Source: Fragilaria crotonensis (Eukaryota; Bacillariophyta; Fragilariophyceae; Fragilariales; Fragilariaceae). Taken from it: a DNA stretch of 64,000 nucleotides. Shown here piece after piece: positions 61,287 through 63,608 of this stretch. Both the position numbers and the translations under genes were made by a program. The notes beneath the pieces were generated by a model, which did no database searches, was not told where the DNA came from, and saw only the letters and a list, made by a program, of their open reading frames with translations. The stretch spans positions 62,001 through 126,000 of the forward strand of contig JAKSYS010000064.1 of assembly GCA_022925895.1 (NCBI GenBank), read 5' to 3'. The stretch's first letter is position 1. Each line of letters opens with the position of its first letter.

Positions 61287-61289
61287 CAG

Positions 61290-62962
61290 GAGGTTCCGGA
61301 ATTTTGGCTTTTTCCTGTATTCGGAGTACTGCACCACGTCGAATCTGCAGATTTCCCACGTGATAAATCATGCATCATGCTATCATGAAGCAAAAAGAAT
61401 CCATGCTACAAAACGTCAATCGCGACCACGACAAAAAGTTTATCCAATGATAAAATGTCACATCGATTGATGCAACAATTCAGGCATATAAATAGAACGT
61501 GTATGACTTCATAATAGAGGTTTTACTGTGTAGGGATAAACGAATATTCGGTTCGACTGAAACGTTTCGCTTTTATGTGAAGCATTTCGCTTAAGCGTTT
61601 CGCTTCCACGAAGCGTTTCGCGTCAGCATTTCGCTTCAGTGACCCGTTTTGCATTAATAGGGTTTTTCCTCTTGCAGGACCTCGTCGCAGAGACGAATTG
61701 GAGCACGGAGGTTCCGGAATATTGACTTTTTCACTATACTGGAGTACTGTACACTGTACACGCTGCATTATCGAATGCTTCCTCTCTACCGTAGTAGGTT
61801 TTTCATTGTTCAATGGATGGACAAAGCCATGACAATCCGAAACGTCAGCATCGGTTCTGTCATATGCGATAAATTGATGTGAAAAAGATATACATGGTAC
61901 ATCTACCGACTTGAATAGGATGACATTTTAAAATCTGTCCGTTTCTTATTTAGGGGTAATGACAGAAAATGATAAATTTGGACTGAAGCATTTCGCTCTC
62001 TTGAAGCAAACGCGGAAGCGAAATGCTTCGTGGAAAGCGAAACGCTTCCAGATTTTACTCCCGTGGAAGCGAAACGCTTCAACCAATAGCGAAGGAATGA
62101 GCTCGTCCAGCCCTACGATATAGACCGTGCTCCAATTCGGTTCTGCTACGAGGTCCTGCAAGAGGAAAAACCCTATTAATGCAAAACGGGTCACTGAAGC
62201 GAAATGCTGACGCGAAACGCTTCGTGGAAGCGAAACGCTTAAGCGAAATGCTTCACCTAAAAGCGAAACGTTTCAGTCGAACCGAATATTCGTTTATCCC
62301 TACACAGTAAAACCTCTATTTTGAAGTCATACACGTTCTATTTATATGCCTGAATTTTTGCATCAATCGATCTGACATTTTATCATTGAATAAACTTTTT
62401 GTCGTGGTCGCGATTGACGTTTTGTAGCATGGATTCTTTTCGCTTCATGATAGCATGATGCATGATTTATCACGTGGGAAATCTGCAGATTCGACGTGGT
62501 GCAGTACTCCGTATACAGTAAAAAGCCAAAATTCCGGAACCTCACGGTCTATATCGTAGGGCTGGACGAGCTCATTCCTTCGCTATTGGTTGAAGCGTTT
62601 CGCTTCCACGGGAGTAAAATCTGGAAGCGTTTCGCTTCTACGAAGCATTTCGCTTAAGCGTTTGCTTCAAGAGAGCGAAATGCTTCAGTCCAAATTTATC
62701 ATTTTCTGTCATTACCCCTAAATAAGAAACGGACAGATTTTAAAATGTCATCCTATTCAAGTCGGTAGATGTTAGTAATGGACCAAGTATATCTTTTTCA
62801 CATCAATTCATCGCATATGACAGAACCGATGCTGACGTTTCGGATTGTCATGGCTTTGTCCATCCATTGAACAATGAAAAACCTACGGTAGAGAGGAAGC
62901 ATTCGATTATGCAGCGTGTACAGTACTCCAGTATAGTGAAAAAGTCAATATTCCGGAACCTC
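61290..62962. mobile_element. Self-nested foldback element: outer copy
   Basis: The outer element consists of 61,290-61,707 plus 62,547-62,962, about 834 bp. It has terminal GAGGTTCCGGAAT inverted at the other end and a CAG direct repeat on each side (61,287-61,289 and 62,963-62,965). Each half carries clusters of the palindromic word GAAGCGAAACGCTTC and variants. No coding frame. An inverted copy of the same element splits it. Confidence 0.85.
61708..62543. mobile_element. Self-nested foldback element: inner inverted copy
   Basis: This 836-bp copy starts GAGGTTCCGGAATATTG and ends in the inverted form. It is flanked by ACG on both sides (61,705-61,707 and 62,544-62,546). Its own uninterrupted centre (around 62,119-62,141) is the reverse complement of the site it inserted into in the outer copy, so the pre-insertion target is directly visible. 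The two copies are nearly identical. Confidence 0.88.
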
Positions 62963-63009
62963 CAGGATGAAACCAGCCATATGTGATATGCTTTTGCTAG
63001 ACGTGATAC

Positions 63010-63608
63010 TACCACATAAAAAGTGCCTGGAGCCGTTTCGACCGCTGGAGCCGTTAAACAGGGTTTTTTCGCCTCCTCCTACAAAGAAGTCACTCAATTT
63101 CAAGAAATTGATAGCACTTGCTATGGAAGAGTTGATCTCTGATATACAATATAACAATGTTGTCTGGAGCAGTGAAGAAACCAATTTGTAGACTGGGTTG
63201 TAAAGCTCACTGGAAGTTGAGGGGTGGCAGTTTTTCTCCCCTCGGGAATTTCACCCCATTGATCGCGTACCACCAATAGGGAAAAACTCTGTAGGAGTAG
63301 AAAACACGTACAAAAAATCATAGTCAAATGGGGTGAAAATTCTCAACCGATGCCAAAAAAATGTCTTAAGGTATGTATACATTTAAATGAAGTGCCTGGA
63401 GCTGTTAAATTCTAAAATGAGCGTCACATGTTCAGCAACAACTTCATCAATTCTTGCTCTGGTAAAAGAATGATTAATGTTCTGGATAGCCAAGAACATT
63501 ATACAGCATTTGTAAGCAAACAGAATTGAAATCAAAGCATTTTTGAGCAAGATATCTTTAGTCCACAACGGGGTGAAAGTAACGGCTCCAGGCACTTTTT
63601 ATGTGGTA
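63010..63608. mobile_element. MITE-like element with 28-bp perfect inverted ends
   Basis: TACCACATAAAAAGTGCCTG at 63,010 opens a 28-bp arm repeated as its reverse complement at 63,581-63,608. Partial internal copies of GTGCCTGGAGC lie near 63,390. No target duplication is resolved, and no transposase. Confidence 0.72.

Follow-up and report, generated by a model that had tools for sequence, protein, structure and literature searches.

How four blocks of about 418 bp came to stand in the order A, B, A-reverse, B-reverse is the question raised by positions 61290-62962 of the window, the 64,000-nucleotide stretch of Fragilaria crotonensis DNA analysed here (C614:62001-126000, from an assembly of 62.1 Mb in 881 contigs). 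A preliminary description had read the blocks as an element of about 836 bp carrying an inverted copy of itself near its midpoint, with 3-bp target duplications, CAG for the outer copy and ACG for the inner one, and an intact central target in the inner copy. The block order, the coordinates and each of these features are borne out by the analysis.

Within these 1673 bp, an element measuring 834-836 bp is interrupted at its midpoint by a full-length inverted copy of itself, which spans 61708-62543 and has both ends. The arms at 61290-61708 and 62125-62543 are 97% complementary across 419 bp, and the other half is 97-100% complementary, piecewise. The 13-bp end GAGGTTCCGGAAT is exact at all four termini of the composite, and these are the only four matches in the 64-kb window even when two mismatches are allowed (shuffle mean of 1.37). 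The terminal repeat starts with GAGG, is exact over 13 bp and extends to approximately 26 bp at 92% identity. Both duplications are exact, and when gaps are disregarded the outer copy shares 97.9% identity with the inner one. The features are as follows.

61290..62962, + strand: composite (nested) element of 1673 bp, outer element with inner inverted copy; second genomic copy at C214:4354-6007
61287..61289, no strand: outer target duplication CAG, left
62963..62965, no strand: outer target duplication CAG, right
61290..61707, + strand: outer element, left half (A), 418 bp
61708..62543, - strand: inner inverted copy, 836 bp, both ends present
62544..62962, + strand: outer element, right half (B-reverse), starting with the second ACG
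61705..61707, no strand: inner target duplication ACG, left
62544..62546, no strand: inner target duplication ACG, right
61290..61302, + strand: outer left terminal inverted repeat, GAGGTTCCGGAAT
62950..62962, - strand: outer right terminal inverted repeat
61708..61720, + strand: inner left terminal inverted repeat
62531..62543, - strand: inner right terminal inverted repeat

The unoccupied ACG target is read in the centre of the inner copy and likewise in the single elements on C764 and C407, and C435 has ACC at this position. The inner duplication deviates from the CWG consensus of the family. Approximately 50 bp past the composite, the window contains a second, unrelated insertion (63012-63606) with inverted CCACATAAAAAGTGCCTGGAGCCGTT ends and TA flanks, which is missing from another copy of the locus on C336, where the empty site reads GATAC-TA-CCACTTCG. 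Judging by the TA duplication alone, this would be a polymorphic Stowaway/Tc1-mariner-like MITE.

The ends of the composite belong to a sizeable family. Genome-wide, the 13-bp end with at most one mismatch occurs 244+248 = 492 times, against 39+24 = 63 for the reversed-pattern control, and a CWG triplet lies directly outside an exact end at 118+115 sites, against 0+0 in the control. CWG lies outside 77 of the first 100 exact ends listed; these 100 ends comprise 34 pairs, of which 29 measure 770-1043 bp, and 32 unpaired ends. Equal 3-bp flanks are present in all 30 element pairs that were read at both ends, a set that leaves out C336 (the window locus), the C214 inner copy (the same event), a 10-kb pair on C5 and C41 (right end not found). 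Duplications of 3 bp at other copies had been anticipated in the preliminary description, and no other target length was encountered in these pairs. The duplicated triplets are CAG/CTG in 24 pairs, CCG/CGG in two, and ACG, CTC, CAT and TAG in one each; none of the 30 is TWA. Some target sites (flanks of L063, L071, L073 and L074) are long palindromes around the duplication, for example TACAAGTAC-CTG-GTACTTGTA. Over the 30 target sites, flank symmetry is weak.

Each half of the window element contains a cluster of palindromic iterons, next to the insertion point.

61553..61641, + strand: subterminal palindromic iteron cluster (AAGCGTTTCGCTT type), outer left half
62586..62673, + strand: subterminal iteron cluster, outer right half
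62008..62086, - strand: subterminal iteron cluster, inner copy (B half)
62189..62260, - strand: subterminal iteron cluster, inner copy (A half)

Counted from either end of the window element, the iteron starts lie at 275-339 bp on one side and 288-365 bp on the other. Corresponding distances are 271-316 and 257-323 bp in L073, besides one iteron near each end, and 248-279 and 246-276 bp in L065; in L072 the starts lie farther in (370-404 and 357-436 bp). Elements that encode a transposase are similar, with starts at 228-268 and 253-304 bp from the ends in C140 and C232, and at 269-344 bp from the left end in C41, besides one near that end. Across the measured elements, coding and miniature alike, the iterons are approximately 230-440 bp away from either terminus, and their similar distance in C140, C232 and C41 (228-344 bp) identifies them as subterminal; they stand near the middle of the MITEs because little DNA lies between them. 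Their sequence and period depend on the subfamily: GCGTTTCGC palindromes in the window subfamily, GGCTCAAGAGCC with a period of 15 in the relatives of L073, and TTCTTAAA or TTCTCCTA types with a period of 10 in other subfamilies. The earlier observation that iterons adjoin the insertion point stands, but their position does not by itself demonstrate that the element attracts itself through them, as the iterons of C140, C232 and C41 are subterminal too.

Nested insertions elsewhere in the family bear on whether the midpoint is a preferred target. The window event is a single event, seen at C614, C336 and C214, with the insertion at 418 of 834 bp. On C548 (83628-85404) a copy in direct orientation is inserted at 463 of 887 bp with TAG duplicated, and on C542 (31327-37530) a relative of 5305 bp is inserted at 342 of 896 bp with CAG duplicated. 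The end-site lists were scanned by eye, two of them completely (85 and 40 sites) and the others in part, so that the count of three events is a lower bound; no further nested event was seen by eye among the end sites listed. Contig C548 also contains, downstream from a gene for a light-harvesting protein, an open frame of 280 aa (L077), which by eye only resembles a tyrosine recombinase.

All three events lie in the spacer between the iteron clusters, which makes up 15%, 25% and 26% of element length (product 0.0096; leaving out the window event gives 0.066). Two of the three are at non-CWG triplets (ACG and TAG), although 4 + 2 CWG triplets were available in the spacers and 21 + 13 in the whole elements. 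Were insertion random, approximately 0.7-0.9 nested events would be expected, and the three found are a weak excess over this (P 0.03-0.06). These features could be accounted for if iteron-bound machinery captured the DNA between inward clusters, so that insertion would occur preferentially in the centre of the element's own kind and at off-consensus triplets. We consider this unlikely. There are three events only, the test was framed after the first had been seen, and the other two alone give the weaker product; the shortness of the element makes its subterminal iterons look central; the C542 insertion, at 0.38 of its host element, adjoins an iteron cluster; the set of nested events is incomplete; and host selection or chance could also account for the positions. 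The insertions on C548 and C542, like that in the window, are in the central spacer, but three events do not establish a preference: they are suggestive but few.

A different class of interrupted element was found with an L073-type MITE as query (872 bp). Many of its matches are split near position 421-425 by a shared stretch of approximately 156-185 bp (40 of 59 candidates scored), and one match, on C268, is split by approximately 170 bp at query position 190. The extra stretch read in L064 (C14:71746-71920; approximately 170 bases) is by eye an imperfect tandem repeat. It is without the ends of the family, and was therefore rejected as a nested insertion and taken as the mark of a variant L073-type subfamily.

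A genome search with the left half of the element gave matches at the window, C336, C435, C214, C764 and C407 (all nine candidates scored), and the right half matched the same loci, with weak matches on C424 and C185. Three of these are single elements: 831 bp with CTG on C435, 827 bp with CTG on C764, and 794 bp with CAG on C407. The C336 sequence represents the same locus as the window (flanks 99.3-99.7% identical), with an outer right half that is only 89% like that of the window, against 99% in the flanks. The C336 composite (L015, C336:5936-6636) also has an extra partial A' half of approximately 280 bp ending in the terminal inverted repeat, which may be either a real rearrangement or an assembly error.

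C214 (4354-6007), by comparison, is an unrelated locus with the same block order, cleanly preserved. Over the 9 kb compared, its homology to the window breaks off no more than 5 bp from the element ends, where the C214 composite has a CTG duplication of its own. Between the two loci the inner copies are 99.6% identical and the outer copies 99.1%, whereas the inner and outer copies within C214 are 96.7% identical, gaps ignored throughout. Extra stretches of 3 bp and 7 bp are common to the inner copies of the window and C214 and absent from the other five aligned sequences; the alignment excludes C336, which is without the shorter stretch. The presence of the composite at two unrelated loci, flanked by CAG at one and by CTG at the other, most likely reflects a single self-insertion and later movement of the whole 1.67-kb unit.

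The two composite loci might alternatively represent independent self-insertions at the same ACG, or gene conversion, with no movement of the unit. Self-insertion does recur in the family, as the events on C548 and C542 indicate, and both composites have complete ends. It is nevertheless improbable that two events would yield inner copies in the same orientation, at the same base, 99.6% identical and with the same 3-bp and 7-bp stretches, and the homology of C214 ends at the outer termini, where the duplication differs. Still less probable is an assembly artefact in the form of a collapsed or chimeric palindrome: the garbled stretch of approximately 280 bp in C336 suggests that such repeats may assemble badly, but three contigs carry the same block order, one of them with unrelated flanks and its own duplication, and both duplications of the window composite are exact.

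The superfamily was assigned through coding relatives. Elements on C140 (3815 bp, CGG duplication) and C232 (7147 bp, CAG duplication) have the family ends and a DDE_Tnp_4 match each. In C232, joining three exons at splice sites that we predicted from the sequence gives an open frame of 301 aa that matches DDE_Tnp_4 over positions 1-157 of 158 (E 7.8e-12). The three acidic residues of the C140 and C232 transposases were picked by eye. C41 has one exact end and a transposase match, and its left end is 87% like the MITE L073 over 454 aligned bases; its right end was not found. The sibling MITE L065 is non-coding and has its ends in common with the coding C232. It matches C232 at 92% across 672 bp on one side and at 96% across 328 bp on the opposite side, the pattern that an internal deletion would leave. 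For the window subfamily itself, a blastn comparison of the 836-bp copy with C140, C232, C41, C36, C142 and C133 gave approximately 23 terminal bp and short chance matches only, and no coding element with more than this in common among the six. Two of the six, of 4.3-4.5 kb, have family ends and equal 3-bp flanks (L055, C36:100523-104790; L057, C142:93845-98387). No ORF of 100 aa lies inside the 4.3-kb element on C36, and that on C142 (4.5 kb) has a 107-aa ORF wholly inside and a 155-aa ORF crossing its end.

The ends had been described as matching no known superfamily with 3-bp targets, a view overturned by C140 and C232; a coding relative with the same ends had also been proposed as the means of naming the superfamily, and these two elements do so. 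Because coding elements with DDE_Tnp_4 have the same ends and CWG-type duplications, the window elements are assigned, as non-coding members of MITE size, to a PHIS (PIF/Harbinger-type) family whose CWG duplication is the one known from the NuwaI group. CACTA elements also have 3-bp duplications and subterminal repeats, but a CACTA/EnSpm-like family, or another superfamily that duplicates 3 bp, can practically be dismissed, as the ends do not read CACTA, the duplications are mostly CWG and two coding members match DDE_Tnp_4.

A candidate partner protein is encoded by a conserved 182-aa ORF of C232, with 20 matches on 19 contigs. The ORF is present on 12 of the 27 contigs with transposase matches (C41, C47, C155, C232, C312, C317, C378, C490, C509, C621, C631 and C687), at distances from the transposase that range from approximately 0.2 kb (C317 and C687) to more than 7 kb (C509, C631 and C378), and membership of one element is therefore established for C232 only. 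C140 has the transposase and gave no match to the partner ORF. The first 54 residues lie within the MITE L065 on C17. Alignment of 11 of the 20 matches reveals 25 invariant positions; these 11 members gave no credible Pfam or PDB match and no recognised Myb/SANT domain, the weak matches obtained (best 0.022 in Pfam and 0.091 in PDB) being rejected as noise. By analogy with related systems, the subterminal iterons are probably the binding sites of this protein.

Taken together, the composite is best explained, with a probability that we put at about 0.9, by a non-autonomous MITE-like element of PHIS/PIF-Harbinger type that inserted into its own kind at ACG, after which the nested product moved as a unit. 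The element would be a cut-and-paste transposon producing a 3-bp duplication, usually CWG. A DDE_Tnp_4 transposase, probably with the partner protein, would be supplied in trans by coding relatives and act on the shared GAGGTTCCGGAAT ends, with the partner probably bound at the subterminal iterons. One copy, as read from the junctions, inserted in inverted orientation at ACG in the centre of another, and the 1.67-kb composite, bounded by its outermost ends, would then have moved to the second locus.

The family shares with the NuwaI group, as described in the cited part of PMC4482050, 3-bp CWG duplications, a DDE-type PHIS transposase, coding elements of several kb and short terminal repeats; the duplication is seen here in 24 of 30 pairs and 77 of the first 100 ends listed, and the transposase match is at the level of Pfam. 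In that account NuwaI elements have PHIS transposases and a Myb/SANT partner, are found only in animals, and have terminal repeats of 12-61 bp that usually start with GGG. The repeat length of the Fragilaria family fits, whereas its ends start with GAGG, its candidate partner is without a recognised Myb/SANT domain and its host is a photosynthetic diatom. Given the GAGG ends and the partner without a recognised domain, the family is filed as PHIS with NuwaI-type duplications rather than as a proven NuwaI member. The photosynthetic character of the host is also evident from the genome, which has 61 matches to the chlorophyll a/b-binding family, some of them exons of a single gene. One translated protein (L075) is most similar to FCPI-7 of 6ly5 (5.9e-87) and Lhcr11 of 6l4u, both diatom structures, and another (L076) to LHCI chains of 9vfj; by these proteins alone, a diatom-like alga would be likely.

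Likeness to PIF/Harbinger sensu stricto and Tourist MITEs such as mPing, from what PMC2836001 states in part, extends to a DDE transposase, associated MITEs, a 3-bp duplication and a site preference reaching past the duplication, and would extend to two element proteins if the candidate partner is one; the duplication there is TWA and here CWG. In zebrafish Harbinger3_DR, a Myb-like partner recognises a 9-bp subterminal motif (PMC9710019, cited portion). The putative sites of the Fragilaria family are likewise in subterminal regions but form arrays with a period of approximately 10-18 and vary in sequence by subfamily. Self-insertion of transposons has already been described, and insertion of P{lacW} into its own copy is the comparison afforded by the relevant part of PMC4744444; the present case is natural, non-coding and at the midpoint, with the composite also at a second locus. 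Harbinger-like elements are mentioned in the diatom Thalassiosira pseudonana in the cited section of PMC2806351. Among the papers listed in literature searches, none treats CWG-duplicating PHIS elements in an alga, judged by titles and the openings of abstracts; the CWG of PMC12595863 stands for the initials of an author.

These findings extend the CWG duplication type, described from animals, to a sizeable PHIS family in a distant, photosynthetic host. The family gains coding relatives and a nested element that apparently moves as a unit. With iterons similar in position and changing in sequence between subfamilies, self-recognition by the transposition proteins becomes a testable question, and central self-targeting, if true, would yield nested composites that travel as larger units.
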